This document shows, piece by piece, positions 24,714-42,204 of a stretch of 43,490 bases of DNA. Positions within the stretch are counted from its first letter, which is position 1. Each line of letters begins with the position of its first letter. The notes below the pieces were generated by a model. That model did not search any database, had not been told where the DNA came from, and saw only the letters and a program-made list of their open reading frames with translations. The stretch is from NCBI GenBank assembly GCA_900315555.1, contig OMZN01000070.1, positions 1 through 43,490 of the forward strand, read 5' to 3'. The position numbers were made by a program, and so were the translations under genes. This stretch comes from an uncultured Eubacteriales bacterium (GTDB taxonomy: Bacteria > Bacillota > Clostridia > Peptostreptococcales > Anaerovoracaceae).

Positions 24714-26007
24714 GTTTCCTCCCTGCAGCCGTACCTGCCCGCATGCCGGTCTGCCAGGCATGGTTCAGATTAAATCCTCCGCAAGGTCCGTTATAATCCA
24801 GCACCTCACCGGCAAAGTACAGTCCCGGTACCAGGCGCGAGGCCATGGTCTTCTCCTCCACCTCCGAAAGCGGAACGCCTCCGCCGCTGCACTGTGCCTG
24901 CTTCCAGCCGCGGGCGCCGCAGAGCGGCACCACCCAGCCGCCGCAGAGCAGCGCCTCAATGCGCCGGACAGCCTCATCCGAAAGCAGACGCGCAGGACTT
25001 GACAGCGCCGTCTCCCCCAGCGTCTTCTGCAGCAGATGATGCGCCGCCCTGCGGGGCAGAACGGATCGCAGAAGATCGCCTGCCGCAAGGCCCCGGACAG
25101 CGCGCCGCGCAGCAAGATCCACCCGGCCGGCCGCCGGCAGAATACGCACAGCGTAGTCACCGAATCCCGTGTCCTTGCCAATGCGCACGAAGCGGCTCAG
25201 ATTCATGATACAGATGCCGGAGAGACCGTCCCTGGCAAATTGAATTTCCCCGCTCTCGGAAGCGATACAAACACCGCGGCGCAGCAATTCTGCACGTGCT
25301 TTCAAGCGTACGCCCTGCAGATCCTCCATGCCCTTTGCCTCAAGTCCAGTCAGCACCGGATACACCGGTGCCACGCTATGCCCAAGAGATCGGGCCAGCC
25401 GGTAGCCATCGCCGGTGCAGCCGAAGCTCGGTCCTGCTTTGCCGCCGCAGGCGATCAGCACCTGCGCCGCTTTGATCTCACCGTTAATAAGAAAGCCGGC
25501 ACCGTGCGGGGAGGAAGCAGCGCCGGATGCCCTTTTCGATGCAGCGGCAGCATCATCTTCTTCCATGCCGCACCGCACCAGCGTCTCTGCCGGATAGGCC
25601 GTGATGATCTCCACACCCTCTGCACGACAGCCGCCGACCAGCGCCTCGGCGACATCCGCCGCCGACTCACTCAAAGGATAGATCCTGCCCGCTTCCTCTT
25701 CCATCGTCTCCACGCCCAAGGTGGCAAAGAAAGAAAGCGTACTTAGATAACCCTCGCTGTCCGTATTCGTCAGGTTGCAGCGTCCGTTCCCTGTTGCCCG
25801 GATCTTCTGCGCCGGCGCCGGCTGCTTCTCCAGGACAGCCACACGCTTATCCGGATCCTCACGCGCACAGCACACTGCGGCCGCAAGACCGGCCGCCCCG
25901 CCTCCGATCACACAAAAATCAAAGGAAAAGCCCTCTTTGCCTGAACTTTTCCTTTGCCATCCTCGCTTATGTACGTTGTTATGCTTCCTGCTCCGCCTGC
26001 TGCACAT
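24706..26007 (-). CDS. HI0933/BaiN-type flavoprotein (NAD(P)/FAD-dependent oxidoreductase)
   Basis: A 433-residue flavoprotein of the HI0933 family. FAD loop VIGGGAAGLAAAV (GxGxxG at 35-40), the family signature ATGNGRCNLTN (71-81), and C-terminal LYFAGEVLDYNGPCGGFNLNHAW are all present. Members are called oxidoreductases, and BaiN has been linked to bile-acid dehydroxylation, but most have no proven reaction. The only good start is the ATG at 26007, 29 bp inside the upstream UspA-like gene, with GAGGA before it. This leaves an unusually long 29-residue basic lead before the FAD domain, so the true N-terminus is uncertain. Confidence 0.85.
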   Translation of the reverse strand: MCSRRSRKHNNVHKRGWQRKSSGKEGFSFDFCVIGGGAAGLAAAVCCAREDPDKRVAVLEKQPAPAQKIRATGNGRCNLTNTDSEGYLSTLSFFATLGVETMEEEAGRIYPLSESAADVAEALVGGCRAEGVEIITAYPAETLVRCGMEEDDAAAASKRASGAASSPHGAGFLINGEIKAAQVLIACGGKAGPSFGCTGDGYRLARSLGHSVAPVYPVLTGLEAKGMEDLQGVRLKARAELLRRGVCIASESGEIQFARDGLSGICIMNLSRFVRIGKDTGFGDYAVRILPAAGRVDLAARRAVRGLAAGDLLRSVLPRRAAHHLLQKTLGETALSSPARLLSDEAVRRIEALLCGGWVVPLCGARGWKQAQCSGGGVPLSEVEEKTMASRLVPGLYFAGEVLDYNGPCGGFNLNHAWQTGMRAGTAAGRKHV

Positions 26008-26395
26008 CGTCCGCTTCTTCCTCGGGAACCGTAATCAGCTCCACATCGCCTCCGATCATCGCTTTGAGTTCCCTCGTCATATCACTGCCGTTGTCCCCTT
26101 CGCGATGAACTCCCATGACCACTTTGCCGATGTCGTTTTTTTCCACCTGACTGGCCAGAGTTGCCAGTACATTGTTGGATCGGATCACTGTCAGGTTGGC
26201 GCCATACTCCAGCGACTTCTGATACAGGTATTCCAGCGCCTCGCCATCGTCTGAACCGGCCAGATATTTGAATTCATAACTGGCAATGTGGATGATCATC
26301 AGATCACCGCCATTCTCATCAGCCAGCTTTCTTCCATACGTAATCAGACGATCGCATGTTTGCTGCTGCGTAACGCAGACCAATACATTATTCAT
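25979..26395 (-). CDS. UspA-like universal stress domain protein
   Basis: A 138-residue stand-alone protein with the alpha/beta USP layout: strand NNVLVCVTQQ, helix, strand DLMIIHIAS, then DIGKVVMGVHREG near the position of the ATP-binding G-x2-G-x9-G motif. It is closest in feel to the USP domain found inside KdpD sensor kinases. The C-terminus is acidic (PEEEADDVQQ). Role unknown; possibly nucleotide sensing. Its 3' end overlaps the HI0933-type gene, so the two are coupled. GGGAGAA lies before the ATG, and TATACT about 60 bp upstream could be a -10 element. Confidence 0.7.
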   Translation of the reverse strand: MNNVLVCVTQQQTCDRLITYGRKLADENGGDLMIIHIASYEFKYLAGSDDGEALEYLYQKSLEYGANLTVIRSNNVLATLASQVEKNDIGKVVMGVHREGDNGSDMTRELKAMIGGDVELITVPEEEADDVQQAEQEA

Positions 26396-26474
26396 CTCGC
26401 GATTTCTCCCGCTTTGTGTCTATTTCAACTTTCTTTCTCAAGTATACCCCAGCTTCTGCAAAAAGGAAAATGGA

Positions 26475-27866
26475 TTATCCCTGCGCCGCACCCGCGGCAT
26501 GTTCCTCGTCTTCAGCTTCGGCTGCCTTCATCATCACGGCGCATTCAATCCTTTTTTTGTGCAGTGTGCATCCCAGCTCATAGACACCGCGGATGCTGCC
26601 TGTCGTGTGGTAGGCATTGGCCGCACAGCCGCCGCTGCAATAGAGCCTGGCAAAGCAGTCGCGGCATTCTTCATGGGAATACACATTGCAGTCCCGGAAG
26701 GGCTCCAGCTTCTCCGGCGCCGTGATTCCCTCCCAGATGTTTCCCAGAAGAAAATCCGGTTCACCTACAAACTGGTGGCATGGATACAGATCACCCTCCG
26801 GCGTGACCGCCATATACTCCGTCCCTACGCCGCACCCCGAAATTCTCTTGGCGATGCAGGGGCCGCCCGTCAAATCGATCATATAATGATAGAATGTGAA
26901 TCCGCTGCCGCTGCGGCGCCTGCGGATCATCTCCACGGCCAGCCGCTCATATTCGCTGCAGAGCTTTTCCGCATGCTCGGGATGCAGTGCATAAGGCGCG
27001 TCCGGGGAAGCGACCACCGGTTCAATGGAAAGCTCCTTGAACCCCAGATCCGCCATGTGCAGCACATCGCTGGCGAAATCCAGGTTCTCAGCGGTGTAAG
27101 TGCCCCGCATATAGTAATCCTTCTGTCCTCTGGCATCGGCCAGCTTCTTGAAGCCTTCGATGATCCTGTCATAGGTTCCGCCGCCGTCAGGCATCCTGCG
27201 CATCCTGTCGTTGACTTCCCGGCGTCCATCCAAAGAGATGACGACGTTGCTCATCTCGCAGCTGGTAAACTCGATGACTTCATCATCGAGCAGCAGCCCG
27301 TTGGTCGTCAGCGTGAAGCGGAATTTCTTGCCGCTTTCTTTCTCCCTGGATCTGCCGTAGGCCACCAGCTTCTTGACAACCTGCCAGTTCATCAGCGGCT
27401 CGCCGCCGAAGAAATCCACCTCCAGGTTGTGGCGGTTTCCTGAATGTTCGATCAGATAATCCAACGCGCGCTGCCCGGTCTCGTACGACATCAGGGCTCG
27501 CTCGCCATGATACTGCCCCTTGCCGGCAAAGCAGTAGCCGCAGTCCATATTGCACGTGTGCGCCACATGAAGACAGATGGCCTTCAGTACAGACTGCCTG
27601 TCCTTGAACTCCTTCGCCAGGTCATAGAAAGGATCGTCGGAAAAGAGCTTTTTCTGCTTTTTGAGGGTGTCGATATCATTGAGGATCGCATCGATTTCCT
27701 CGCCGGCAAGATGATACCGTGCGCCGATTACGCGGCGGATTTCTTCCTTTGGATGCTCTTCAACCATCCCGATCACATCATACGCTGCCTCATCCACCAC
27801 ATGGATGCTTCCGCTGCAGCCGTCAATGACGATATTGTATCCATTCAGTTTGTACCGATGCACCAT
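26475..27866 (-). CDS. scfB: SCIFF peptide radical SAM maturase
   Basis: Radical SAM/SPASM enzyme that installs a thioether cross-link in the adjacent SCIFF precursor. The start is the ATG at 27866, because family members begin MVH-x-YKLNGYNIV; an 11-residue upstream extension is unlikely. It gives 463 residues. The N-terminal region resembles the peptide-binding RRE-like part. The radical SAM cluster is CNMDCGYC (C105, C109, C112), followed by FFGGEP. The SPASM region carries C337, C345, C363, C393, C401, C404, C410, C414 and C433, enough for two auxiliary [4Fe-4S] clusters. It follows scfA by 87 bp, with a terminator-like hairpin between them. Confidence 0.95.
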   Translation of the reverse strand: MVHRYKLNGYNIVIDGCSGSIHVVDEAAYDVIGMVEEHPKEEIRRVIGARYHLAGEEIDAILNDIDTLKKQKKLFSDDPFYDLAKEFKDRQSVLKAICLHVAHTCNMDCGYCFAGKGQYHGERALMSYETGQRALDYLIEHSGNRHNLEVDFFGGEPLMNWQVVKKLVAYGRSREKESGKKFRFTLTTNGLLLDDEVIEFTSCEMSNVVISLDGRREVNDRMRRMPDGGGTYDRIIEGFKKLADARGQKDYYMRGTYTAENLDFASDVLHMADLGFKELSIEPVVASPDAPYALHPEHAEKLCSEYERLAVEMIRRRRSGSGFTFYHYMIDLTGGPCIAKRISGCGVGTEYMAVTPEGDLYPCHQFVGEPDFLLGNIWEGITAPEKLEPFRDCNVYSHEECRDCFARLYCSGGCAANAYHTTGSIRGVYELGCTLHKKRIECAVMMKAAEAEDEEHAAGAAQG

Positions 27867-29102: not shown

Positions 29103-30482
29103 TTACTGGTTGGCCGCCTCACGCTGTGCGACTTCTTCCAGATGCTCCTTCCAGAGCTTATCTGCAACCGGCTTCCAGTGCTCCGCCGTGGATCTGCAGC
29201 GTTCGCAGTAATCGTCCACGCTTTCGGGGCTCTCCAGGTCGGTGGAGTGAGCGCCGCAGCGATGTACCATGTCGGCCAGTCTTCCCGGATTGTCAAGCAC
29301 CGGGCACGGTCTGTACAAGTTGCTGTTGAACGGCTGGTTGTCATGGTATTCCATGAACATAGGCGACTGATAGGCCTCCAGCAGCGTCTTCTCATAGATG
29401 TTGGAATCCGAATAGTGAATGAAAGCGCAGGGCTCGATATCACCGTTCGCATTGATGTGCAGATAGTTACGTCCGCCGGCAATGCATCCTCCTACCGCAT
29501 CGCCGTCGTTCCAGAAGTCCATCGTGAAGAGCGGCTTGGTGCTCCTGAACTTTCTGATCTGTCTGTACATATATTCTCTCTGCTCCGCCGTGGCAATCAG
29601 ATCGGTTACAGCATCATTGCCGATGGGCATGTAGGTGAAGAACCATGCGAACTTGCAGCCCTTGGCAATCAGGTCGTCAATGTAAGCCTCACTGCCGATA
29701 ACCTCTGCATTGGCTCTGGTGTAGCAGCAGCTTACGCCGTAAGCCAGCTTCTTCCTGTGCAGGATCTCCATGGCCTTGCAGACCTTATCGTAAACGCCCT
29801 TGCCTCTGCGGTTGTCGGTCGCCTCATCAAAGCCTTCCACACTGATAGCAGGAATAAAGTTCTTCACGCGCAGCATCTCGTCGGCGAACGCCTCGTCGAT
29901 GAGGGTGGCGTTGGTGAAGGACAGGAAGATGCAGTCGGGGTGCATCTCGCAGAGCTTGATCAGATCATCCTTTCTGACCAGGGGTTCACCGCCGGTATAG
30001 ATGTACATAAACGTACCCAGTTCCTTGCCCTGCCTGATGATGCTGTCCAGTGTCTCAAGCGACATGTTCAGTTTGTTGCCGTACTCAGCTGCCCAGCATC
30101 CGGTGCAGTGCAGGTTACAGGCCGTGGTGGGATCCATCAGGATCGCCCAGGGAATGTTGCAGTTATATTTAATTCTGTTTTCCCGCTGTCTGGAAATACC
30201 GGTGTAACAGGCATTGATCATGAAGCTCTCGAAGAAGTTCATGCGGACGCTGTCATCAATATCTGTCCACAGGCTCTTCATGAACTTGTACCAGTTGCCG
30301 TCCTTGTTTTCAATCCATCTTCTGAAGTACTTTCTGTACTTCTCAAATTCACCAGTCTTGTCGATCTTGTCGGCCCAGTCGATCAGCTTCGGCAGGTTCT
30401 TGTCCGGATCCTTCTCCATGTACTTAAGTGCCTGCTTGATCATGCTCATCTGCACTTTGCCTTTGATAGAACTCATTGACAT
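29103..30482 (-). CDS. Radical SAM/SPASM-like protein of unknown function
   Basis: A 459-residue radical SAM enzyme. A helical N-terminal region of about 105 residues precedes TTACNLHCTGCWAAEYG (C122, C126, C129), and the SAM-binding YTGGEPL follows. The C-terminal part has cysteines in GGCIAGG, DIEPCAFIH, YRPCPVL, HRCGAH and DYCERC, consistent with a SPASM-like auxiliary cluster region. Close relatives occur widely in Clostridia, but I know of no assigned substrate and no obvious precursor peptide is adjacent. AGGAGGG precedes the ATG at 30482; a second in-frame ATG lies two codons later. It has its own terminator, so it is probably expressed separately from the SCIFF pair. Confidence 0.85.
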   Translation of the reverse strand: MSMSSIKGKVQMSMIKQALKYMEKDPDKNLPKLIDWADKIDKTGEFEKYRKYFRRWIENKDGNWYKFMKSLWTDIDDSVRMNFFESFMINACYTGISRQRENRIKYNCNIPWAILMDPTTACNLHCTGCWAAEYGNKLNMSLETLDSIIRQGKELGTFMYIYTGGEPLVRKDDLIKLCEMHPDCIFLSFTNATLIDEAFADEMLRVKNFIPAISVEGFDEATDNRRGKGVYDKVCKAMEILHRKKLAYGVSCCYTRANAEVIGSEAYIDDLIAKGCKFAWFFTYMPIGNDAVTDLIATAEQREYMYRQIRKFRSTKPLFTMDFWNDGDAVGGCIAGGRNYLHINANGDIEPCAFIHYSDSNIYEKTLLEAYQSPMFMEYHDNQPFNSNLYRPCPVLDNPGRLADMVHRCGAHSTDLESPESVDDYCERCRSTAEHWKPVADKLWKEHLEEVAQREAANQ

Positions 30483-30551
30483 TGTGTCTCCCTCCTTGCA
30501 TCCGAGTACCTGACTCGCACGAAATCAATATACCTTTCAATCTTATTTGCT

Positions 30552-30557
30552 ATTATA
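30552..30557 (-). promoter_or_regulatory. Possible -10 element of the radical SAM gene
   Basis: Leftward TATAAT 70 bp before the ATG at 30482. No convincing -35 hexamer and no TGn extension. Confidence 0.4.
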
Positions 30558-30627
30558 CCCAAACAGGATTATTTCTTCTCTTTACACTTTTTTGCCTTTG
30601 TATAAAAAATGACTGGATTTTTTCACA

Positions 30628-30659
30628 CAAAAATCCCGGACAAATTGTATGTCCGGGAT
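30628..30659 (-). terminator. Terminator of the aminopeptidase gene
   Basis: Perfect 10-bp arms ATCCCGGACA and TGTCCGGGAT around a 7-nt loop, followed leftward by TTTTTGTG, 65 bp past the aminopeptidase stop. Confidence 0.9.
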
Positions 30660-30724
30660 AAGCTTCAACTAGATCTGGTAATCCTTACCATGCCGAAGGA
30701 CAACGGGCGTTTCCGCCGCCTTCC

Positions 30725-32110
30725 TCAGCGGTGCATCCCCCGAAGGAACGCTTTGTAGCCTTTGTATGTCTCAAAGATATCCGCCTTGCTTGTCACCTCG
30801 AAGGGAGCATGCATATTGAGTACCGCCACGCCGCTGTCAACAACCTCCATGCCGTAAAGAGACATAATGTAGGCAATCGTGCCGCCGCCGCCTACATCCA
30901 CCTTGCCGAGCTCAGCAGACTGAAAGCGCACGTCCTGCGCACGCAGAACCTGCCGCAGGCGCCCCAGGTATTCCGCATTGGCATCGTTGGAACCGCTCTT
31001 GCCGCGGGCGCCGGTGAACTTGTTGAATACCATGCCGTATCCCATAAGAGCGGCGTTCTTTTTATCAAACTTAGCAGCATAGACGGGATCATATGCCGCG
31101 CTCACATCCGATGAAAGCATCGTGCTGCGGGCCAGGGTCCGGCGCAGCGCCAGATCGCCGCCTTCGCCCATCAGCGCCAGCAGCTCTGCCACTGTGTTTT
31201 CAAAGAAACGTGACTGCATGCCGGTCGCACCCACACTACCGATTTCCTCCTTGTCCACCAGCAGAGTGCAGGCACTCCTTTTCACCTTCTCGACATCCAG
31301 CATGGCCTGCAGTGAAGTGTAAGCGCATACCCTGTCATCCTGACCGTATGCCATGATCATGCTGCGGTCCAGGCCGGCATCCCTTGCGGTTCCCGCCGGA
31401 ACGACCTCCAGTTCTGCTGACCACAGATCATCTTCTTCGATCCCGTACTGTTCCTTCAAAAGCGACAGGATCCGTTCCTTTGTGCCTTCTTTCTCCTCCT
31501 CTGAGAGAGGACGGCTTCCTACGACAACGTCCAGCGCCTCGCCCTCGATCACGACGCGCGCCTTCTTGTCCATCTGGGAAGCCGCAAGATGAATCAGAAG
31601 ATCCGAGACGAAGACGACAGGATCGTTCTCGTCCTCCCCGATGCAGATCGGCACGCTGGTGCCGTCGGTTTTGACAACGACGCCATGAATCGCCATCGGG
31701 ATCGTGACCCACTGGTATTTCTTGATCCCGCCGTAATAGTGCGTATCCAGATAGGCGATCTGCGTATCTTCATAGAGAGGATTCTGTTTGACATCCAGAC
31801 GGGGCGAGTCGATGTGCGCCCCCAGAATGTTAAAGCCCTCCTGCATCGGATCCGATCCGATATGAAACAGGCTGACCATCTTCCCCATGTTGACAGCATA
31901 CACCTTGTCGCCTGCCGCAACGGACTTCCCTTCTTTCACAAGCGAATTCAGATCGCGATAGCCCGCTTCTTCTGCGGCAGCACGAATCAGCGCAACGCAT
32001 TCTCTCTCTGTCTTGCCCTGATCAAGGAAGCGGCGATACTTGCCGCAGAGTGCTTCCAGCTCCGCTTCCGCTGCCTTGTCATAGGTCGTCCATGCGTTTT
32101 TGTCCTTCAT
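30725..32110 (-). CDS. M18 family aminopeptidase
   Basis: Cytoplasmic dinuclear-zinc aminopeptidase of the M18 family, probably dodecameric, trimming N-terminal residues from peptides. The 461-residue length is typical. Metal-site motifs are visible: GAHIDSPRLD (H99, D101), LLVDKEEIGSVG (metal and catalytic glutamates), SSDVSAAYDP, and a late histidine in LNMHAPFEVTSKAD. GGGAGGA precedes the ATG at 32110. It lies 87 bp after mscL with no terminator between, so the two may share a transcript. Confidence 0.93.
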   Translation of the reverse strand: MKDKNAWTTYDKAAEAELEALCGKYRRFLDQGKTERECVALIRAAAEEAGYRDLNSLVKEGKSVAAGDKVYAVNMGKMVSLFHIGSDPMQEGFNILGAHIDSPRLDVKQNPLYEDTQIAYLDTHYYGGIKKYQWVTIPMAIHGVVVKTDGTSVPICIGEDENDPVVFVSDLLIHLAASQMDKKARVVIEGEALDVVVGSRPLSEEEKEGTKERILSLLKEQYGIEEDDLWSAELEVVPAGTARDAGLDRSMIMAYGQDDRVCAYTSLQAMLDVEKVKRSACTLLVDKEEIGSVGATGMQSRFFENTVAELLALMGEGGDLALRRTLARSTMLSSDVSAAYDPVYAAKFDKKNAALMGYGMVFNKFTGARGKSGSNDANAEYLGRLRQVLRAQDVRFQSAELGKVDVGGGGTIAYIMSLYGMEVVDSGVAVLNMHAPFEVTSKADIFETYKGYKAFLRGMHR

Positions 32111-32197
32111 AGTTTCTGTCCTCCCTTCCCGGCCTTTTCCTGCCGGTCTTGTTTCTGTCTGTTCTGTCCGGGTCCCTGTGCCTTTCCACCGGTTCTA

Positions 32198-32650
32198 TCA
32201 GACCGTTTTCTCCTCCTCGGAAAGTATTGAAGTACAGTGGGGACAGCGCGTCGCCTCCAGCGGAATCTCACTCTTGCAGAAGGGGCAGACCTTCGTCGCC
32301 GCCGGCGCATCTTCTTCCTTGTGTCCCAATGACATCAGCCGCGTCATCCCCTTGATCAGAAGGAAGATCACGAGCGCAATAATCAGAAAGTTGATGACCG
32401 CCGTGATGAAGTTTCCGTAGGCCAGCACCGGCGCATCGGCACCGCTCCCCAGGGTCACCTTGCGCGCTGAAAAATCGACGCCGCCGAACAGTCCCAGGAT
32501 CGGCATGAGAATATCCTGGTTGAGCGAAGTGACAATCGCCGTAAAGGCACTGCCGACAATGATACCGACAGCCATGTCCATCACGTTGCCCTTGCTGATA
32601 AAAGCCTTGAACTCCTGAATAAAGCCTTTTGCCTTGTCTTTTTTATCCAT
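32198..32650 (-). CDS. mscL: Large-conductance mechanosensitive channel with C-terminal zinc ribbon
   Basis: Pentameric membrane pore that releases solutes on osmotic downshock. Residues 1-110 show the MscL pattern: amphipathic start [22 protein letters not shown]1 (about 24-45), a periplasmic loop, and TM2 (about 78-100). The C-terminus replaces the usual helical bundle with a probable zinc ribbon: CPFC (C122, C125) and CPHC (C136, C139). Such tails occur in some clostridial MscL proteins; their role is unclear. GAGGTGAG lies before the ATG at 32650. Confidence 0.92.
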
Positions 32651-32754
32651 CTTCTCACCTCATATGCTTTCCCGTTGTATTCATGCAGCACACCATGCCC
32701 TGCACCGCAGAGCACACCATGGCATACCATGGCACCTGCATCACTCTCACCTTA

Positions 32755-35385
32755 TCAACCTTTATCGCCCTTGTCAATCCTGGTGGCGATCTCCCGTCTT
32801 GTCTTTTCCAGTTCTTCCAGAAATTCCCTTGACGAAATCCGCATGGCGCCATGCCCCATGGCAATCATCTGCTCCAGAGCATCGGAGGTGACGACGCGCA
32901 CGCGAAGCCGCTCTCCCTGCTCATGCGTAAATTTTTCGATCCAGGCATCGGCCGTCTGTTCGTAAGCCGTATAGACCACCTGCAGATCGCCCCGCTGCTC
33001 GCAGCTGCCGACAGCGTCCTTCCTTTTATAAGCATCAAAGACCACGATGATCTTCCGCCCGGTATAGCCGCTGTAGTTTTCCAGCACCTCCGCCAGCCTG
33101 TCACGCGCCGCATCCAGCGCATCGGAAGACGCATTTCCTGCGTCGATCCCAAGCTGGATGCCGGCAGAGCCGGCGGTGCCCTTTTGTCCGGCCGCAGCAA
33201 AGATCAAGTTGTAGCCATCGATGACATAGCACTCCTCCCGCGCGGCCTCCCGCGCCGCCCGCGCCCGGGATGCACCGCCTCGTATCTGCCTGCCGGCCTC
33301 GGCTTTGGGCTTGCTTCTGTGACGTTTTTCCCGGGGTGCCCCGCCGGCCCGGCCGACGACCCTGCGCAGCTCCTCATCGCTTACGGCAGACGGACGCCGC
33401 TGCACCGCTTCGCCGGGAGCACGCACTGAAGAAAGCACACTTGGCAGATGCATATATTTCTCCACGCGGTCCCAATGCACCACAAAACCGCTGCCGTGCT
33501 CGCAGAATACGGAATCCGGCGTATTCTCAAGATCCCGCTCCGGCTGGTAGCCGCTCTCCTCGATGACCCGGGCTGCATCCTGACAGACATCGTAGCCATC
33601 ATAGCGAAGGGCAATCTCACCCTCTCCTCTGGTGTAGCCGGCAAATTCCACAGGATAGTCCCGCATCGGTGCCACCGGCACGCGGCCCGTGAGGAAAGCT
33701 CTGTCTCCATCGGAGACCGGCGGCTCAAACGTGCCCCCCATGCGCTGCATATCCGCCATGGTGCGTCCGATCAGCGCCTGCGGCACCGCCATACGGAAGC
33801 GGTACCACGGCTCCAGAAGCACGCTCTCCGCTTTCATCAGACCCTGCCGCACCGCACGGTACGTGGCCTCCCGAAAGTCACCGCCCTCGGTATGTTTTTT
33901 GTGTGCCCGGCCCGCCGCCAGCGTGATACGCAGATCTGTCACCGGCGCGCCGATCAGGACGCCCTGATGCACCTTTTCCTTCAGGTGCGTCATGATCAGA
34001 TTCTGCCAGTTGGCAGCCAGCTGATCCTCACTGCAGCGGCTGGCAAAGACCACCCCGCTGTTTCGCGGCAGGGGTTCCAGGATCAGATGTACCTCGGCAT
34101 AGTGACGCAGCGGTTCATAGTGTCCGACTCCCTCGACCGTACTGCCTATCGTCTCACGGTAGAGAATCCGGCCGCTGTCGAACGTCACGCGGACACCGAA
34201 GCGCTCCTCCATAACCGCGCTGATCACTTCCTTCTGCACTTCGCCCATCAGGGAGACGCGAATCTCTTCCGCTTCCTCATCCCACTGCACCTGCAGCGCC
34301 GGATCCTCCTCAGCCAGCACACGGAAATACCCCAGCAGGGTGTGGGCATTACAGTCCTCGGAGAAGACGCAGTAAGCCAGCACAGGTTTGGTCTCGGGCG
34401 CATCGCCGTCTGCACAGCGTCCGATACCCTCGCCAATCACCGTATGCTCAGGGCCCGCCACGGCACAGACCTGTCCCGGCGCCGCCGCCTGCACGGTCTC
34501 GTAAGCAGGTCCGGAATACAAGCGAATCTCACTGACCTTCTCGCCGTCGATGATATCCCGCACATGCAGCGTACCACTGACCACCTTCATGTGGGTCAGC
34601 CGGATTCCCTTTTCATCCCGTTCTATTTTGAAGACACGGGCGCCGAAAGGAGCCTGGGCAAGGGGAACATCGGCAGGGCCGCCGTCCTCTTCCACGGACG
34701 CCGTCTCCTCATCCTGCAGGCCCGGCAGGAGCCGATCCATCTGGGTGAGCAGTTCCGCCACACCTGTATGGCGCAAAGCCGACCCGAAAAAGCAGGGGAA
34801 CAGACGTCTTGCAGCAACAGCCTCCCGCAGCGCCTCCCAGGTCAGCCCGCCGCGCTGCAGATAAGACTCCATCAGCGCCTCATCCACCGCCGCTGCTTCT
34901 TCCTGCGGATCCTCGGCCGTAAAGCTCACGCACCGGCTGGAAATCCGCCGCTGCAGCTCCCTGAGAATGTCCTCCGGTTCACGGCGCGCCATATCCATCT
35001 TGTTAATAAAGAGAAAGACCGGAATGTTCTGCCCGGCCAGCAGCTGCCAAAGCGTCTCCGTATGGCTCTGCACGCCCTCGCTGCCGCTGATCACCAGGAT
35101 TGCCGCATCCAGCACCTGCAGCGTGCGCTCTGCCTCTGCAGAAAAGTCGACATGACCGGGCGTATCCAGCAAAGTGAACTCCGTTTCCCCGTAGGAAAAG
35201 CATGCCTGCTTGGAGAATACGGTGATACCGCGTCTGCGTTCCACCGACGCCGTATCCAGAAAGGTATCCCGCCGGTCAACCCGCCCTGCTTTGGACAGCA
35301 CACCGGCCTGTACCAGCATAGCCTCAGAAAGTGTCGTCTTGCCCGCGTCTACGTGCGCCAATATGCCTATGACTATTCGTTTCAT
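32755..35385 (-). CDS. Tet(M)/EF-G-like ribosome-binding GTPase fused to a Rae1/YacP-like NYN nuclease
   Basis: 876 residues. About 1-645 are a translational GTPase of the Tet(M)/Tet(O)/Tet(W) type: G1 AHVDAGKTT (10-18), RRGIT switch I, DTPGH (74-78), NKMD (128-131), then EF-G-like domains II to V. About 650-717 are a basic linker. About 718-876 match YacP/Rae1, a PIN/NYN ribonuclease that cleaves mRNA in the ribosomal A site in Bacillus subtilis: YVIDGYNLIF (D723), IVVFDAYKRK (D784), TADAWIEKF, and VVTSDALEQ (D835) followed by GAMRISSREFLEEL. The acidic residues of a PIN-type site are kept. Whether the GTPase part gives tetracycline protection cannot be told from sequence. It is flanked by trxA and mscL on the same strand. 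Confidence 0.9.
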   Translation of the reverse strand: MKRIVIGILAHVDAGKTTLSEAMLVQAGVLSKAGRVDRRDTFLDTASVERRRGITVFSKQACFSYGETEFTLLDTPGHVDFSAEAERTLQVLDAAILVISGSEGVQSHTETLWQLLAGQNIPVFLFINKMDMARREPEDILRELQRRISSRCVSFTAEDPQEEAAAVDEALMESYLQRGGLTWEALREAVAARRLFPCFFGSALRHTGVAELLTQMDRLLPGLQDEETASVEEDGGPADVPLAQAPFGARVFKIERDEKGIRLTHMKVVSGTLHVRDIIDGEKVSEIRLYSGPAYETVQAAAPGQVCAVAGPEHTVIGEGIGRCADGDAPETKPVLAYCVFSEDCNAHTLLGYFRVLAEEDPALQVQWDEEAEEIRVSLMGEVQKEVISAVMEERFGVRVTFDSGRILYRETIGSTVEGVGHYEPLRHYAEVHLILEPLPRNSGVVFASRCSEDQLAANWQNLIMTHLKEKVHQGVLIGAPVTDLRITLAAGRAHKKHTEGGDFREATYRAVRQGLMKAESVLLEPWYRFRMAVPQALIGRTMADMQRMGGTFEPPVSDGDRAFLTGRVPVAPMRDYPVEFAGYTRGEGEIALRYDGYDVCQDAARVIEESGYQPERDLENTPDSVFCEHGSGFVVHWDRVEKYMHLPSVLSSVRAPGEAVQRRPSAVSDEELRRVVGRAGGAPREKRHRSKPKAEAGRQIRGGASRARAAREAAREECYVIDGYNLIFAAAGQKGTAGSAGIQLGIDAGNASSDALDAARDRLAEVLENYSGYTGRKIIVVFDAYKRKDAVGSCEQRGDLQVVYTAYEQTADAWIEKFTHEQGERLRVRVVTSDALEQMIAMGHGAMRISSREFLEELEKTRREIATRIDKGDKG

Positions 35386-35503
35386 CGTTTTCCTCTCTGC
35401 AGACTAAATAGCTGCGCTCATTTTCCTGTTTGACTTGCAGGCCGGAGCAAAGATCCGGATCGGTTATCAAAACACAAAGACCGTTACAGCGGTCAACACC
35501 ATA

Positions 35504-35537
35504 AAAAGGAGCACTGGCATACGCCAATGCTCCTTTT
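35504..35537 (-). terminator. Terminator of trxA
   Basis: Arms AAAAGGAGCACTGGC and GCCAATGCTCCTTTT pair over 15 bp with one G-U, loop of 4 nt, T-run on the leftward strand. It lies about 120 bp past trxA and 120 bp before the GTPase fusion gene. The surrounding bases 35386-35659 hold no other gene I can support. Confidence 0.85.
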
Positions 35538-35659
35538 CACTGCAATTCTGTATCATTCTTTGCACCGCCGGCATGCCGGCGCAAACGCTGCAGCCGGGGT
35601 ACACGGCGCTCGATGATTCTCCCGGGCAGGGCAGGTACTGCGCTTCGCAGGCGGATTTT

Positions 35660-35968
35660 CTAGCCGAGGATCTTTTCGATTTCCTCTTTGGGCTGCGCAC
35701 CGATGGTCTTTCCTGCGATCTCGCCGTCCTTAAAGAAGATCAGCGTCGGAATGGACATCACGCCGTATTTCATAGCCAGTTCCGGCTGTTCATCGACATT
35801 GATCTTTCCTACCTTGATATCTCCATGTTCTGCCGCGATCTCATCAACAACGGGACTGACCATCCTGCAGGGACCGCACCATGCCGCCCAAAAGTCTACC
35901 AGCACCGGCTTGTCAGAACCAACTACTTCCTGCTCGAAGTTTTCTTTCGTAATCTCTACAGTTGCCAT
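35660..35968 (-). CDS. trxA: Thioredoxin
   Basis: Cytoplasmic disulfide reductase of 102 residues with the classical active site WCGPC (C31, C34), the cis-proline segment SIPTLIFF, and the full thioredoxin fold. Two ATGs lie two codons apart; the second (35968) is chosen because AAAGGAGG then sits eight bases upstream, whereas it would be only two to three bases from the first. Monocistronic by its promoter and terminator. Thioredoxin reductase is not in the window. Confidence 0.95.
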   Translation of the reverse strand: MATVEITKENFEQEVVGSDKPVLVDFWAAWCGPCRMVSPVVDEIAAEHGDIKVGKINVDEQPELAMKYGVMSIPTLIFFKDGEIAGKTIGAQPKEEIEKILG

Positions 35969-36028
35969 TGGCATTACCTCCTTTGCGAGTAAGTCTTTCC
36001 TTTTTCTTACTTATTCCACAATCGGAAG

Positions 36029-36057
36029 AATTTAAACTGAAAACCAGCTCGCTCCAA
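36029..36057 (-). promoter_or_regulatory. Probable promoter of trxA
   Basis: Leftward TTGGAG (36052-36057) and TAAATT (36029-36034), 17 bp apart, about 60 bp before the trxA start. Moderate matches only. Confidence 0.4.
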
Positions 36058-36061
36058 GCCG

Positions 36062-36088
36062 AAAAATCACCGGGCAGCACGTGCTGCC
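36062..36088 (-). terminator. Possible terminator of yebC
   Basis: Perfect palindrome GGCAGCACGTGCTGCC (36073-36088) followed leftward, after six bases, by TTTTT. Short stem and displaced T-run make it a weak candidate. Confidence 0.4.
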
Positions 36089-36144
36089 GCAGCTTCCGCT
36101 TAAGGTGCATCATGCCAGGCCGTTGGACGCAGGCAGTTCAAACA

Positions 36145-36870
36145 TTAAACCTCTTCCAGATCCACCGCGCAGTTATGATATACCTTCTGGACGTCATCGT
36201 TTTCTTCCAGCAGGTCGATCATTTTCTTCAGATTCGGCAGATCTTCCTCCTTAGGCGTTGCCTCGGTTGCCGGAATATTCTCGATATCGGCCTCCACGAA
36301 TTCATAACCGGCTTCTGCCAGTGCGTCCTTAACTGCCATGAAATCGTTGGGATCCGTAATGATTTCGAAGCTGTCGTCGTAGGTGTTCATATCCTCCATG
36401 CCGGCCTCCAGCGCCGCTTCCATCAGAGCATCCTCGTCGATGTCCTCTGTCTTTTCAATGACGATGGAGCCCTTCCTGGAGAACATATAGGATACACAGC
36501 CGGGCGTTCCCAGATTGCCGCCGTATTTATCGAATGTACTCTTGACCGAACTGGCAGTACGATTGCGGTTATCGGTCAGCGCTTCCACCATGACGGCCAC
36601 ACCGCCGGCACCGTAACCCTCGAAATTCAGCTCTTCGTAGGTTGCGCCTTCCAGCTCGCCGGTCCCCTTCTTGATGGCCCGGTTGATATTGTCATTGGGC
36701 ATGTTGATGCTCTTTGCCCGGTCGATAGCATGCTTGAGCGAAACATTGTACTCCGGATCTCCGCCATCCTTGGCCGCCACCGTAATCGCTCTCGCATACT
36801 TTGTGAACAGCGCTGCTCTCTTTTTGTCCTGTGCGTCCTTCCTGCCCGCTATCGTTCCATGTCTGCCCAT
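36145..36870 (-). CDS. yebC: YebC/PmpR family protein
   Basis: A 241-residue YebC/PmpR-family protein, described variously as a transcription regulator and, for some members, as a ribosome-associated factor helping translation of polyproline stretches. The ATG at 36870 gives the family-typical MGRHGTIAGRKDAQDKKRAALFTK start and has GAGGAGGAG upstream; a 39-residue upstream extension is spurious. Visible signatures are GGDPEYN, NMPNDNINRAIKKG and the YEEL-NFEGYGAGGVA segment. It has its own promoter, which contains a perfect palindrome. Confidence 0.93.
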   Translation of the reverse strand: MGRHGTIAGRKDAQDKKRAALFTKYARAITVAAKDGGDPEYNVSLKHAIDRAKSINMPNDNINRAIKKGTGELEGATYEELNFEGYGAGGVAVMVEALTDNRNRTASSVKSTFDKYGGNLGTPGCVSYMFSRKGSIVIEKTEDIDEDALMEAALEAGMEDMNTYDDSFEIITDPNDFMAVKDALAEAGYEFVEADIENIPATEATPKEEDLPNLKKMIDLLEENDDVQKVYHNCAVDLEEV

Positions 36871-36938
36871 GGGAAACTCCTCCTCAACCAAAATGCATCT
36901 GTCATCTAGCTTCTGTAATCTATTTCTGTAACCTATAT

Positions 36939-36967
36939 AGTATACACCGAATGCATTCGGATGACAA
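36939..36967 (-). promoter_or_regulatory. yebC promoter with a 14-bp palindrome in its spacer
   Basis: Leftward TTGTCA (36962-36967) and TATACT (36939-36944), 17 bp apart. The spacer contains the perfect palindrome CCGAATGCATTCGG (36947-36960), centred between the two hexamers where a bound repressor would block polymerase. Leader about 65 nt. Confidence 0.7.
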
Positions 36968-36976
36968 TCCTTGTGA

Positions 36977-37822
36977 TCAATCGGCAAAATAGAAAGGGTC
37001 CTGATCCGTCTCCGTGTCCATCCAGACCTTGTTGAAAAGCATGCCCAGCACCAGAACCCAGGCCAGAATATAGAACCAGAGCATCACGGCGATGATGCTG
37101 CTGAGCACGCCGTATACACTGATGCCGCTGCGGTATCCTAAAAAGAGAGAATAGAACATCGTAACGATGACCATGCCCACCGAAGCGAAGATGCTGCCCG
37201 GCAGGATCTCCCGAAACCGCAGCCGTTCGCTGGGCATCACGTAATATTGAAAGCTGATGCAGAGAATATAAAGGAGAAGCGCCACCGGCCAGCGCGCCAC
37301 GGTCCAAATCGTCGGTGACATACCGAGAGCATCCACCAGGAAACGCTGACCATACAGCAGCACCAGCAGTGCCAGCATGATAATGACAATGAAGATCAGC
37401 ATCGTCACGATCGAACGAAAGCGCTCACGAAAATACCCCCTGCCGGTGGTGCGCCCTTCGGTATACATATAGTTGGAGATCCGCACCATGCAGAACTGAA
37501 CACCGCTGGCCGCCCACAGGGCAATGAAGACATAGACAATATTGGCCGGCACACCTGCCGATCCCTTGGCACCCAGGATGTTCTGCAGCTCATGGGTGAA
37601 GGCGTTGTCCATGCTGCCGATGCGACTGTTCATCAGCCAGGCGATCACGTCGGAGAACTGCAGATGGAATCCAAAGATAAGCAGCTGAGAGAGAATGATA
37701 ATCATAGGGACGATGGCGCACATGAAATAAAAGGACATCTGCGCCGCAAATCCCTGATAATAGGGATCCCTGATCTGGCGAATCCCCGAAAACACCATTC
37801 TGAAAAATCGATTCTTTGACAT
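36977..37822 (-). CDS. YihY/BrkB family membrane protein
   Basis: A 281-residue inner-membrane protein of the YihY/virulence factor BrkB family, with about six hydrophobic helices: CAIVPMIIILSQLLI, NIVYVFIALWAASGV, MLIFIVIIMLALLVLL, WPVALLLYILCI, IFASVGMVIVTMFYSLF and SIIAVMLWFYILAWVLVLGMLFN. The family was once misannotated as ribonuclease BN; its real function is unknown. Ribosome site is weak (AGAGAG). It follows the activase-like gene by 101 bp. Confidence 0.9.
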   Translation of the reverse strand: MSKNRFFRMVFSGIRQIRDPYYQGFAAQMSFYFMCAIVPMIIILSQLLIFGFHLQFSDVIAWLMNSRIGSMDNAFTHELQNILGAKGSAGVPANIVYVFIALWAASGVQFCMVRISNYMYTEGRTTGRGYFRERFRSIVTMLIFIVIIMLALLVLLYGQRFLVDALGMSPTIWTVARWPVALLLYILCISFQYYVMPSERLRFREILPGSIFASVGMVIVTMFYSLFLGYRSGISVYGVLSSIIAVMLWFYILAWVLVLGMLFNKVWMDTETDQDPFYFAD

Positions 37823-37852
37823 ATACTCTCTGCGCTGCCCCTCTTCGGAACC

Positions 37853-37903
37853 GGCTTCGTCCTCCGAGAGCCTCTGTTATTCAGCATCCCGGAGGATGAA
37901 GCC
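37853..37903. repeat. Long inverted repeat between the activase-like gene and yihY
   Basis: Arms GGCTTCGTCCTCC (37853-37865) and GGAGGATGAAGCC (37891-37903) pair over 13 positions with one G-T, enclosing 25 nt. There is no T-run on either strand, so it is not a standard terminator; it may be an RNA-processing or stabilising hairpin. Confidence 0.5.
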
Positions 37904-37923: not shown

Positions 37924-40900
37924 TCAGCCGACGCTGCGATTCTCCTGCTCGTTCGCCGCTTCTGCTTCTTCTCTCTGTTTGGCGGCCAGATTCTTGTGCG
38001 CTGCTGCCATCATCAGCTTGATGCGGTTCAGCTGGTTGACATTGCTGGCACCGGGATCAAAATCTATCGCTGCGATGTTGGCCATCGGGTTGCGCTTGCG
38101 CATAGCCTTGAGCATGCCTTTGCCCACCACATGGTTGGGAAGGCAGGCAAACGGCTGCAGGCAGACAATGTTTTCCACACCGTTATCGATCATTTCCGCC
38201 ATCTCACCGGTCAGCAGCCAGCCCTCACCGCACTGGTTTCCTTCGGAAAGAATCTGCTGGGCCTTCTCCGCCGTCTCCTCGATGAATGCCGGCGGGCGGA
38301 ACCGTTTGCTCCGCTCCAGGGCCTTCCTGGCCGGCGTTCTCAGCCATTCGATGATGGAAACAAACAATTTGTTGATCTCCATCTGCTTGCGCGTGCCCGA
38401 AAGGTAACGGAAGTTGAAGGTCTTCGAATGCATACCATAGAGGAAGAAGTCGATCAGCTCCAGCACCACGGCCTCGCCGCCTTCACGCTCGATAACGCCG
38501 ACGATGTCGTTGTTGGCATTGGGATGATACTTGACAAGGATCTCCCCGACCACGCCGACCTTGGGCTTGACCAGCCCCTCCTGCAGCGGCAGATTGTCAA
38601 AGGCTTCCACCGTCTCAAAGATCAGCTTGCGGAAAGCAGTCAGCGAGCCTTTCTCCACGACGGCATCCGCCTTTTTGGAATAAGCCTCCGCCATGGCATT
38701 GGCCGAACCGGGCTCCAGCTCGTAAGGACGCGTGGCATACAGCACCTTCATCAGCACGTCGCCAAAGATGAACCCCATCAGAATCCGCTTGGCCAGTCCG
38801 GCCGTGATCTTAAAGCCGGGGTTCTGCTCCAGTCCGGAGCTCAAGGCCACCGAAACCACGGGAATCTGTTCCATATGCAGATCCCGCAGCGCCTTTCTGA
38901 GGAGCGCAACATAGTTGGATGCACGGCACCCGCCGCCGGTCTGGCTCATAAAGATCGCCGTCTTGTCCAGATCCAGTTCCCCGCTCTTCAGATACGAAAT
39001 GATCTGACCCAGGGAAACAATGGTCGGGTAGCAGGCGTCATTATTGATATATTTGAGGCCTTCATCCACCGCATTGGTGTCCACCGGCGGCAGAAGTTTC
39101 GCTGTATAGCCTTCCTTGGCGAGCGCAGTCTCCAGGAACTGGAAGTGAATCGGGGACATCTGCGGAACGAGGATGGTATAATCCTTCTTCATTTCCTTGG
39201 TGAAGACCTCCCGCTCGAACTGCCTGCCCGCTCGATCCGGCTTGATGTTGTTCTTTTCCCGCTCCTCCATGGCAGCCTTCAAAGAGCGGACGCGGATCCT
39301 TGCCGCACCCAGGTTGCTTCCTTCATCGATCTTCAGCACAGTGTAGAGCTTGCCGTGACCGCGGAGAATCTCCTCCACCTGGTCGGTCGTAACCGCATCG
39401 AGACCGCATCCGAAAGAGTTGAGCTGGATCAGCTCCACATCGTCGGTCGTCCCGACAAAATTCGCCGCTTTATACATGCGGGAATGGTATACCCACTGAT
39501 CGAGAACACGAATCGGCCGCGGCATCTGCGCCATGTCTGCCACAGAATCCTCCGAGAGTACCACCATACCAAAGGAAGTGATCATCTTGTCCATGCCATG
39601 ATTGATCTCCGGATCCACGTGATAGGGACGGCCTGTCAGGACCACCGCCTTCTTGTTGTTCTTCCTGGCATACCGGAGTGCACGCGCACCCTCGCGCCGC
39701 ACATCGTTATGGTAGCGCCGGTCTTCTTTCCTGGCCAGCCGGACAGCCTGCTCGATTTCATGATGGGGAATGCCTTCCTTATGCAGCACACGCGCCAGCT
39801 CCCGCACCAGCTTTCTGTCATCATCATAAGGCAGGAAGGGATGAACGAACGGCGTATCATATTTGACGAAGACATCGTCCATATTATTGCCGATGACCTC
39901 CGGATATGTTGCCACGATGGGGCAGTTGTAGTGATTGGGGGCTGTGTCATCCTCGCCCCGCTCATAGTTGATCGAGGGATAGAAGATCCAGTCCACGCCA
40001 TGCTTCACCAGCCATTTGATATGCCCGTGCACCAGCTTGGCGGGATAGCAGGCTGTATCCGAAGAAATGGTCTCCATGCCGCCCTCATAGAGCTTTTTGG
40101 AGGAGTGCGGCGACAGCTGAACCCGGTAGCCGAGTTTCGTGAAGAAGGTAAACCAGAAGGGATAGTTCTCATACATATTGAGCACACGCGGAATACCCAC
40201 CGTTCCCCGGGCCGCTTCTTCCTGCGGAAGCGGCTCGTACTGAAACAGTCTCAGGTACTTGTACTGATAGAGATCAGGGAGTTCGTTCTTCGTCTCCGTC
40301 TTGCCCGCTCCCTTTTCGCAGCGGTTCCCGGTAATGAATTTCGAGCCGTCGCTGAACCTGTTGATGGTAAGCATGCAGTTGTTGCCGCAGCGTCCGCATC
40401 TGGCATGGGTGTTCTTAACAGAGAAATGATCCATTTCCTCAGGACCGATAATGGAAGATTCCGTACCTTCCACGTAATTTTCCTGCGAAATGATGGCAGC
40501 GCCGTAGGCCCCCATCAGCCCGGCGATATCCGGCCGGATCACATTCTTTCCGAGGATGCGCTCGATGCTGCGGAGCACGGCATCGTTAAGGAAGGTGCCG
40601 CCCTGCACCACGATCTTTTCGCCGGCTTCCTCAGGATTCCGCAGCTTGATGACCTTGTAGAGAGCATTGCGGATCACCGAAAGCGACAGACCGGCACTGA
40701 TGTCACCGATGGTGGCGCCTTCTTTCTGCGCCTGCTTCACCTTGGAATTCATAAAGACGGTACAGCGGGTGCCCAGATCGACCGGAGAAGGCGCTGAAAG
40801 CGCTTCTTTGGCGAATTCCTTCGTCGACATATCCACCGACTTCGCATAGGTCTCGATGAAAGAGCCACAGCCGGAGGAGCAGGCTTCATTGAGCATGATG

Positions 40901-42204
40901 TTGTAAATGGCACCGTCCTTGATCTTCATGCACTTCATATCCTGCCCGCCGATATCCAGGATAAAGTCCACCCCGGGCAGGAACTTGCTGGCACCCTTGT
41001 AGTGCGCCATGGTCTCGATCTCGCCGGCATCGGCTTTGAAGGCCGCCTTGATCAGGCCTTCTCCATAGCCGGTGACTGTGGTATGGGCCAGGTAGCAGTC
41101 CTTGGGCATTTCCGCATAGAACCGGCGCAGCATCTTCATGACCGCCTTGATGGGATCCCCCTCATTGCCCTGATAAAAATCAAAGACCAGATTGTCCTCT
41201 TCGTCGATGACAGCAGCCTTCGTCGTCGTGGAACCGGCATCGATGCCCAAAAACAGCTTGCCGTGACAGTCTGCAAGAGGTTTGCGCCGAATCTTGTCCT
41301 TGTCATGACGCGCCTTGAAGGCAGCATATTCCTCCTCGTCCTTAAAGAGAGGATCAACTCTCTTGGTATCACTCATCATATCCGGCGTCAGGGAGCCGAA
41401 CTTGTTCACCAGTGCATCCAATGAGACAGCAGGTTCATCCGCCGCAAGATAGGCTGCACCAATGGCAACAAAATACTTGGAGTCTTCAGGGAAGATGACC
41501 TCTTCGGGAGAAAGCTCCAGTGTTTCAATGAAGCGCTGTCGCAGCTCAGACAGGAAGGACAGAGGACCGCCAAGGAAAGCCACATTGCCTTCGATAGGAT
41601 GACCGCATGCCAGCCCGGAGATCGTCTGGTTGACAACCGCCTGAAAAATACTGGCAGCCAGGTCGGAAACCGCAGCGCCTTCGTTGATCAGCGGCTGGAT
41701 GTCCGTCTTGGCAAACACGCCGCAGCGGGCGGCAATGGGATAGATCATCTTGTAATCCTTGGCCGCCTCATTAAGACCCTTGGCGTCGGTATTCAAAAGG
41801 ATCGCCATCTGATCGATAAACGCACCCGTGCCGCCGGCGCAGGTCCCGTTCATTCTCTGCTCAATGGTCTGCCCGTAAAATGTAATCTTGGCATCCTCGC
41901 CGCCCAGCTCGATGACGCAGTCCGTCTGCGGAATCAATTCCTCTACGGCGCGGCTGCAGGAAATAACCTCCTGCTCAAACTTCAGCCCCAGCAGTTTGGA
42001 AAGAGAAAGGCCGCCTGAACCCGTGACGACTGCACGAACCTCCTGCGGTCCGATTTGCTGCAGCATGTCTTCCAAAAGCTCTGCTACTTTTTCGAACACA
42101 TTGGACATGTGCCGTTCATATCTCTTGTAGATGATCTGACCGTCTTCCTCCACGGCCACCAGCTTAACGGTGGTGGAGCCTATGTCAATTCCCAGTTTCA
42201 GCAT
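37924..42204 (-). CDS. Giant 2-hydroxyacyl-CoA dehydratase activase-like protein
   Basis: 1426 residues combining two activator-type ATPase domains with a dehydratase-like region. The first ASKHA domain (about 1-255) has LGIDIGSTTVK and NGTCAGGTGAF (C122). The second (about 316-575) has LFLGIDAGSTTTK, DIGGQDMK and NEACSSGCGSF (C442, C446). Single cysteines in such motifs ligate the bridging [4Fe-4S] of HgdC-type activators. A cysteine knot CGRCGNNC (603-610) plus C629 follows, then a region like the HgdA/B-related DUF2229 family (about 650-1100) and a C-terminal extension. Such fused proteins are common in anaerobic Clostridia but I know of no proven substrate. No separate HgdA/HgdB genes are present. 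AAGG lies before the ATG at 42204. Confidence 0.88.
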   Translation of the reverse strand: MLKLGIDIGSTTVKLVAVEEDGQIIYKRYERHMSNVFEKVAELLEDMLQQIGPQEVRAVVTGSGGLSLSKLLGLKFEQEVISCSRAVEELIPQTDCVIELGGEDAKITFYGQTIEQRMNGTCAGGTGAFIDQMAILLNTDAKGLNEAAKDYKMIYPIAARCGVFAKTDIQPLINEGAAVSDLAASIFQAVVNQTISGLACGHPIEGNVAFLGGPLSFLSELRQRFIETLELSPEEVIFPEDSKYFVAIGAAYLAADEPAVSLDALVNKFGSLTPDMMSDTKRVDPLFKDEEEYAAFKARHDKDKIRRKPLADCHGKLFLGIDAGSTTTKAAVIDEEDNLVFDFYQGNEGDPIKAVMKMLRRFYAEMPKDCYLAHTTVTGYGEGLIKAAFKADAGEIETMAHYKGASKFLPGVDFILDIGGQDMKCMKIKDGAIYNIMLNEACSSGCGSFIETYAKSVDMSTKEFAKEALSAPSPVDLGTRCTVFMNSKVKQAQKEGATIGDISAGLSLSVIRNALYKVIKLRNPEEAGEKIVVQGGTFLNDAVLRSIERILGKNVIRPDIAGLMGAYGAAIISQENYVEGTESSIIGPEEMDHFSVKNTHARCGRCGNNCMLTINRFSDGSKFITGNRCEKGAGKTETKNELPDLYQYKYLRLFQYEPLPQEEAARGTVGIPRVLNMYENYPFWFTFFTKLGYRVQLSPHSSKKLYEGGMETISSDTACYPAKLVHGHIKWLVKHGVDWIFYPSINYERGEDDTAPNHYNCPIVATYPEVIGNNMDDVFVKYDTPFVHPFLPYDDDRKLVRELARVLHKEGIPHHEIEQAVRLARKEDRRYHNDVRREGARALRYARKNNKKAVVLTGRPYHVDPEINHGMDKMITSFGMVVLSEDSVADMAQMPRPIRVLDQWVYHSRMYKAANFVGTTDDVELIQLNSFGCGLDAVTTDQVEEILRGHGKLYTVLKIDEGSNLGAARIRVRSLKAAMEEREKNNIKPDRAGRQFEREVFTKEMKKDYTILVPQMSPIHFQFLETALAKEGYTAKLLPPVDTNAVDEGLKYINNDACYPTIVSLGQIISYLKSGELDLDKTAIFMSQTGGGCRASNYVALLRKALRDLHMEQIPVVSVALSSGLEQNPGFKITAGLAKRILMGFIFGDVLMKVLYATRPYELEPGSANAMAEAYSKKADAVVEKGSLTAFRKLIFETVEAFDNLPLQEGLVKPKVGVVGEILVKYHPNANNDIVGVIEREGGEAVVLELIDFFLYGMHSKTFNFRYLSGTRKQMEINKLFVSIIEWLRTPARKALERSKRFRPPAFIEETAEKAQQILSEGNQCGEGWLLTGEMAEMIDNGVENIVCLQPFACLPNHVVGKGMLKAMRKRNPMANIAAIDFDPGASNVNQLNRIKLMMAAAHKNLAAKQREEAEAANEQENRSVG

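Follow-up and report, generated by a model that had tools for sequence, protein, structure and literature searches.

The window (the whole 43,490-nucleotide stretch of contig OMZN01000070.1, from an uncultured member of Anaerovoracaceae) contains on its minus strand a single open reading frame encoding a translational GTPase joined through a flexible linker to a nuclease domain of the NYN_YacP (YacP/Rae1) family (Table 1). Upstream of the fusion, on the same strand, we found a thioredoxin gene (35660-35974) and a gene of the YebC/TACO1 family (36145-36987). The minus-strand ORF 37924-42204 (1426 aa) resembles, judging by its motifs, a fusion containing an ATPase of the BcrA/BadF-like 2-hydroxyacyl-CoA dehydratase activator type. 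A hairpin followed by a T-run, which resembles an intrinsic terminator, is located after the thioredoxin gene (about 35503-35537, minus strand) and suggests that the fusion forms its own transcription unit. The Rfam search of positions 30000-37900 reported no match to an attenuator or riboswitch. B. subtilis YeeI, which shares its Pfam family with the YebC/TACO1 gene, is, together with Rae1, among the suppressors of efp loss (PMC6613710); the adjacency of the YebC/TACO1 gene to the fusion is not conserved in the relatives. Analysis of the genomic neighborhood of 111 loci revealed no conserved neighbor beyond clusters resembling generic superfamilies. A role in anti-phage defence was considered and rejected, as PADLOC models gave only one weak match at the level of the GTPase (E-value 0.004).

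Table 1. Coordinates of the fused gene and of its parts in the window.
Feature	Residues	Position	Strand	Basis
Whole GTPase-NYN gene	1-876	32755..35385	-	876 aa + stop, ATG at 35385; ORF list
Translational-GTPase G domain	4-221	34723..35376	-	Pfam GTP_EFTU, 170.6 bits
EF-G-like domains II, III, IV, V	247-603	33577..34647	-	Pfam, Foldseek
Domain IV tip loop III, HTEGGDF	498-504	33874..33894	-	Position of SPVST in Tet
Flexible linker	646-715	33241..33450	-	Low pLDDT and length spread in relatives
Short linker helix	670-680	33346..33378	-	AlphaFold2 helix; consensus of relatives
NYN_YacP/Rae1 nuclease domain	716-876	32758..33240	-	Pfam, 128.9 bits; phmmer 5mq8/5mq9
Predicted catalytic D723 (IDGYN)	723	33217..33219	-	Invariant in 62 fusions
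Predicted catalytic D784 (VFDA)	784	33034..33036	-	Invariant in 62 fusions; kept in B. subtilis YacP
Predicted catalytic D813 (TAD)	813	32947..32949	-	Invariant in 62 fusions; kept in B. subtilis YacP
Predicted catalytic D835 (TSD)	835	32878..32880	-	Invariant in 62 fusions; kept in B. subtilis YacP

The Pfam searches identified, all above the curated cut-offs, the domains GTP_EFTU (residues 4-221), EF-G_D2 (247-318), EFG_III (350-402), EFG_IV (405-520, 77.1 bits) and EFG_C (522-603, 58.3 bits), which correspond to the EF-G-type order G-II-III-IV-V within residues 1-645, and NYN_YacP at residues 721-873 (128.9 bits against a cut-off of 24.6, E-value 2e-37). These matches support the first-pass annotation, which had assigned the N-terminal 645 residues to a GTPase and the C-terminal ~160 to YacP/Rae1, with the nuclease expected at residues 718-876. 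The phmmer search with the whole protein reported Tet(O) (4v6v) as the closest solved structure for the GTPase part, with many EF-G structures behind it, and matched the C-terminal 160 residues to B. subtilis YacP (5mq8/5mq9, E-value 1.6e-16). The Foldseek search against the PDB returned EF-G structures, mostly ribosome-bound, as top matches, which the GTPase module resembles in its fold, and the AlphaFold2 model (63-sequence alignment, mean pLDDT 88.5) exhibits confident folds for residues 1-645 and 716-876. A scan of GTDB genomes revealed at least 592 relatives, of which 80 named ones were kept for a frame check; all 80 carry the complete fusion in a single frame, as do 20 of the 20 fully read loci from the window's own family. 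A frameshift between the two halves, a danger noted in the earlier annotation, and a chimeric assembly are ruled out, because the same fused frame recurs in independent genome contigs.

In an alignment of 62 fusions, the NYN residues D723, D784 and D835, to which attention had already been drawn, are indeed invariant, and so is D813; D784, D813 and D835 align to conserved aspartates of B. subtilis YacP. In the G domain D13, K16, T17, D74, G77, K129 and D131 are invariant; of the 62 sequences, 58 retain N128 and 61 retain H78. Because the catalytic residues do not vary among the 62 fusions, both the GTPase and the nuclease are expected to be active. The NYN domain of the window protein matches positions 2-141 of the 166-position Pfam model, with the C-terminal ~24 positions missing, and displays an insertion of ~15 residues after helix 1 (at approximately residues 736-753, or roughly 33127-33180 on the minus strand), which the 15 other proteins of alignment A1 lack; owing to these two features, the contacts that Rae1 makes with the codon and the ribosome may differ here. 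The linker is predicted with pLDDT below 50 at residues 654-669 and 680-707, with the helix 670-680 in between, and its length (counted over 646-719) varies from 65 to 106 residues across the relatives. The helix follows in the relatives the consensus DxELxxIFERTYG, which is diverged in the window protein, and is retained in a natural variant devoid of domains IV and V (see below); it may serve as a docking element. The linker allows the nuclease domain to reach mRNA in the A site, without proving that it does so.

Of the 149 genomes sampled from the window's family, 74 carry NYN_YacP (57 among the 84 good ones), in frames of ~800-1000 aa where the contig is intact, and with one gene per genome. 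The 20 fully read loci share 34-49% identity with the window protein, the two most divergent (L050 and L051) being at 34%. About one third of the good genomes lack the gene, so the lineage can do without it. The carriers identified in the GTDB scan belong to Lachnospiraceae, Oscillospiraceae/Ruminococcaceae, Clostridium, Fusibacter and others. The GTPase-NYN pairing is common in gut Clostridia, and the fusion is a real and ordinary component of its lineage.

The first-pass annotation had proposed a survey of the frequency of the fusion and of the co-occurrence of a free YacP. In a phylum-wide sample, NYN_YacP was detected in 230 of 399 genomes, nearly always once per genome, as a free protein of ~165-200 aa or within a fusion of ~850-900 aa. 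The family sample contains essentially no NYN_YacP other than the fusion. Free yacP directly follows rlmB in 8 of 8 genomes that possess it, with the usual gene order cysS-like, mrnC-like, rlmB, yacP, sigH-like (the "-like" names were assigned by reading the sequences, with no search behind them). In 11 of 14 fusion genomes yacP is missing and the sigH-like gene comes immediately after rlmB; the remaining three rlmB loci are fragmentary or have another arrangement. In the 14 genomes rlmB is located elsewhere than the fusion, and in the genome of the window (G000) the two reside on separate contigs (C128 and C115, respectively). A tree of NYN domains, rough as it rests on a short alignment, separates all 65 fused domains from all 25 free ones by a single branch (support 93/82; 94% of bootstraps), which is consistent with one ancient fusion. 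Altogether, the genome comparisons suggest that the fusion has taken the place of the usual free Rae1 gene in gut Clostridia.

The ancestral location of free yacP, next to the rRNA methyltransferase gene rlmB and the mrnC-like gene, would also agree with a function in the maturation or decay of rRNA or tRNA, in which the GTPase would recruit the NYN domain to ribosomes or assembly intermediates so that structured RNA is trimmed or cut. YacP-like NYN domains have been proposed to participate in rRNA and tRNA maturation, and it has been proposed to test the clostridial Tet proteins for the ability to act as RNases on rRNA (Atkinson 2015, PMC4342817). However, Rae1, the relative that has been characterized, has A-site mRNA on the ribosome as its target (PMC12320835) and depends on translation for its action (PMC10100781), the gene lies away from the rlmB locus in the fusion genomes, and many members of the family live without it; we therefore consider an rRNA/tRNA-processing enzyme unlikely.

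Natural variants bear on the relationship between the two halves. Of the 74 family genomes with an NYN domain, 73 also possess GTPase domains IV-V, and none of the NYN-negative ones does. In the sole exception, G081, an ORF (L190, G081:C22, 3863-5749, minus strand) encodes the G domain, domain II, a domain III-like stretch, the linker helix and the NYN domain, while domains IV and V are gone; the same-genus genome G134 keeps the full-length frame. GTPase-only relatives devoid of the NYN domain (639-644 aa, with loops HTEGGDF, HTSGGDF or HTVGGDF) were found in G512 (L162), in G059 (L184, contig C16), where it accompanies a fused copy, and on the Ligilactobacillus salivarius plasmid NZ_CP101531.1 (L178). 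The plasmid copy is labelled as a tetracycline-resistance protein, yet it scores 378 against the cut-off of 775 of the tet_protect model. An HTEGGDF match in G348 and a second one in G512 turned out to be chance occurrences in proteins that are not GTPases. In the GTPase tree two of the GTPase-only relatives branch outside the fusions, suggesting that the GTPase may have come first, although their branches are long.

The existence of such GTPase-only proteins, together with the long disordered linker, could be taken to mean that the halves perform two separate jobs, with the GTPase acting to remodel ribosomes or to counter stalling (EF-G-like translocation, back-translocation or splitting), the NYN domain acting as a Rae1 that does not rely on GTP hydrolysis, and the fusion merely raising the local concentration. 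This appears quite improbable to us, as the two halves accompany each other in all but one of the NYN-positive family genomes, and the G081 variant, which dispensed with domains IV-V and kept the G domain with the nuclease, suggests that the GTPase serves the NYN domain.

The GTPase had initially been described as "ribosomal-protection-type", which holds for the domain order G-II-III-IV-V but otherwise exaggerates the resemblance to Tet proteins. The fusion obtained 419 bits with the NCBIfam tet_protect equivalog, below the cut-off of 775, whereas the controls Tet(M) and Tet(O) passed with 881 and 851 bits; the EF-G equivalog TIGR00484 was not reached either (265.8 bits, cut-off 659.4). Loops of the domain IV tip dislodge tetracycline (PMC4342817). 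At this tip the window protein and its relatives exhibit HTEGGDF, as opposed to SPVSTPADF in Tet(M), Tet(O) and Tet(Q), PISTAADF in the Otr(A)-like sequence and YHEVDSSEMAF in EF-G. Its residues H498, T499 and D503 are conserved in 60, 61 and 60 of the 62 fusions, respectively, and loop I (GHFEPLRHYAEV) provides a further signature of the group. Among 72,556 plasmid records, 1,356 gave a match to the GTPase, in many cases through a tet gene, and only two fused copies were seen, in a 518-kb Monoglobus and a 252-kb Agathobacter record, both typed as non-mobilizable. With this plasmid distribution and no conserved neighborhood, the notion of an acquired or mobile resistance gene was rejected. RefSeq labels some of the fusions as TetM/TetW/TetO/TetS family; for instance, the fusion at positions 24767-27568 of Agathobacter rectalis NZ_CP143948.1 (L183) is annotated as a TetM/TetW/TetO/TetS family tetracycline resistance protein, and annotations of this kind in gut genomes are likely to be false resistance calls. 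A same-family genome that lacks the fusion carries a genuine Tet(O) (L187, G082:C14), which differs little from the Campylobacter plasmid copy, and separate EF-G-like proteins also occur in the family (L185, L186, L188).

The possibility that the fusion is a ribosomal protection protein against tetracycline or another drug, with an RNase-based resistance mechanism added by the NYN domain, has been suggested in print for NYN-bearing clostridial "Tet" proteins (PMC4342817) and finds some encouragement in the Tet(M)/Tet(O)-like domain order, in Tet(O) as the best structural match by sequence and in the RefSeq labels, but we regard it as very unlikely in view of the tet_protect score, the loop III that is neither SPVST nor PIST, the rarity on plasmids, the variable neighborhood and the single copy in place of free rae1.

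We favor instead, with a probability of roughly 55%, the interpretation of the fusion as the clostridial Rae1, i.e. a chromosomal, single-copy, ribosome-targeted mRNA endonuclease that gains access to the ribosome via an EF-G-like GTPase. B. subtilis Rae1 has been described as an endoribonuclease of the A site, with stalled ribosomes as its proposed targets (PMC6613710, PMC12320835, PMC10100781). Since the fusion appears to have replaced free Rae1, it is more likely to be a routine factor of mRNA quality control than an antibiotic-resistance gene. The view expressed in the first-pass annotation, of a surveillance or rescue factor as opposed to a plain resistance protein, likewise fits one NYN domain per genome, the replaced free rae1, the lack of a mobile context and the non-Tet tip of domain IV.

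In the simplest model, in which the GTPase both delivers Rae1 and gates it, the GTP-bound module would bind at the factor site when the A site is vacant, on ribosomes that are paused, stalled or drug-blocked, and the decoding centre would be probed by the fusion's own domain IV tip (loop III HTEGGDF and loop I). Upon GTP hydrolysis domain IV would withdraw, and the NYN domain, on its tether of ~70 residues, would enter the A site and cut the mRNA, which would then be destined for decay and its ribosome for rescue. The steps would be sequential, because domain IV and the NYN domain presumably cannot share the A site. We infer ribosome binding, A-site cleavage, the sequence in which GTP is hydrolysed and the mRNA cut, and the coupling of GTP-driven A-site binding to cleavage that had been proposed earlier. 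It is conceivable, at somewhat short of even odds, that much of Clostridia employs such a GTP-powered A-site mRNA endonuclease, in which a specialized domain IV tip inspects stalled ribosomes and a tethered Rae1 cuts, and which has displaced the free enzyme.

If this is true, a large group of gut bacteria joins ribosome surveillance and mRNA cutting in one GTP-driven protein, which would be a single-protein answer to the question of how stalled ribosomes are chosen whose mRNA is cleaved before rescue. The likely role of the fusion, as judged from its sequence and distribution, shifts from drug resistance to mRNA surveillance of the Rae1 type. Moreover, some of the fusions, which are probably housekeeping proteins, are labelled in databases as tetracycline-resistance genes, so that resistome counts in gut metagenomes would be inflated. 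The conjecture of an RNase as a means of resistance can now be tested directly against the model of Rae1 replacement.

The architecture itself is not a new discovery and has been known since 2015, when YacP-like NYN domains were described on "Tet" proteins of ten Clostridiales (Atkinson 2015, BMC Genomics 16:78, PMC4342817). Our search of the open literature, which missed several central Rae1 papers, found no later study of the fusion and no biochemical or genetic data on any GTPase-NYN fusion. To our knowledge, a translational GTPase that is itself an mRNase has yet to be characterized.

Compared with known systems, the fusion shares with Tet(M)/Tet(O) (4v6v, 3j9y) the domains G-II-III-IV-V and ~30% identity over 600 residues, but differs in having HTEGGDF in place of SPVST, another loop I and a nuclease, and in being rarely found on plasmids. 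With EF-G/EF-G2 it has the overall fold and the GTPase motifs in common, at an identity of only ~25%. With Rae1/YacP of B. subtilis (5mq8, 5mq9) it shares the conserved aspartates and the GAxRxSxREF motif; the B. subtilis protein is free and devoid of a GTPase, and the free YacP of related genomes is a ~170-aa gene directly after rlmB, whereas the fusion carries a GTPase and is not found at rlmB. The closest counterparts are the clostridial "Tet"-NYN proteins of Atkinson 2015, with the same domain architecture in the same taxonomic group; they were filed as Tet, whereas our analysis places the fusion below the Tet cut-off, finds no Tet-type loop and suggests that it has taken over from free rae1.
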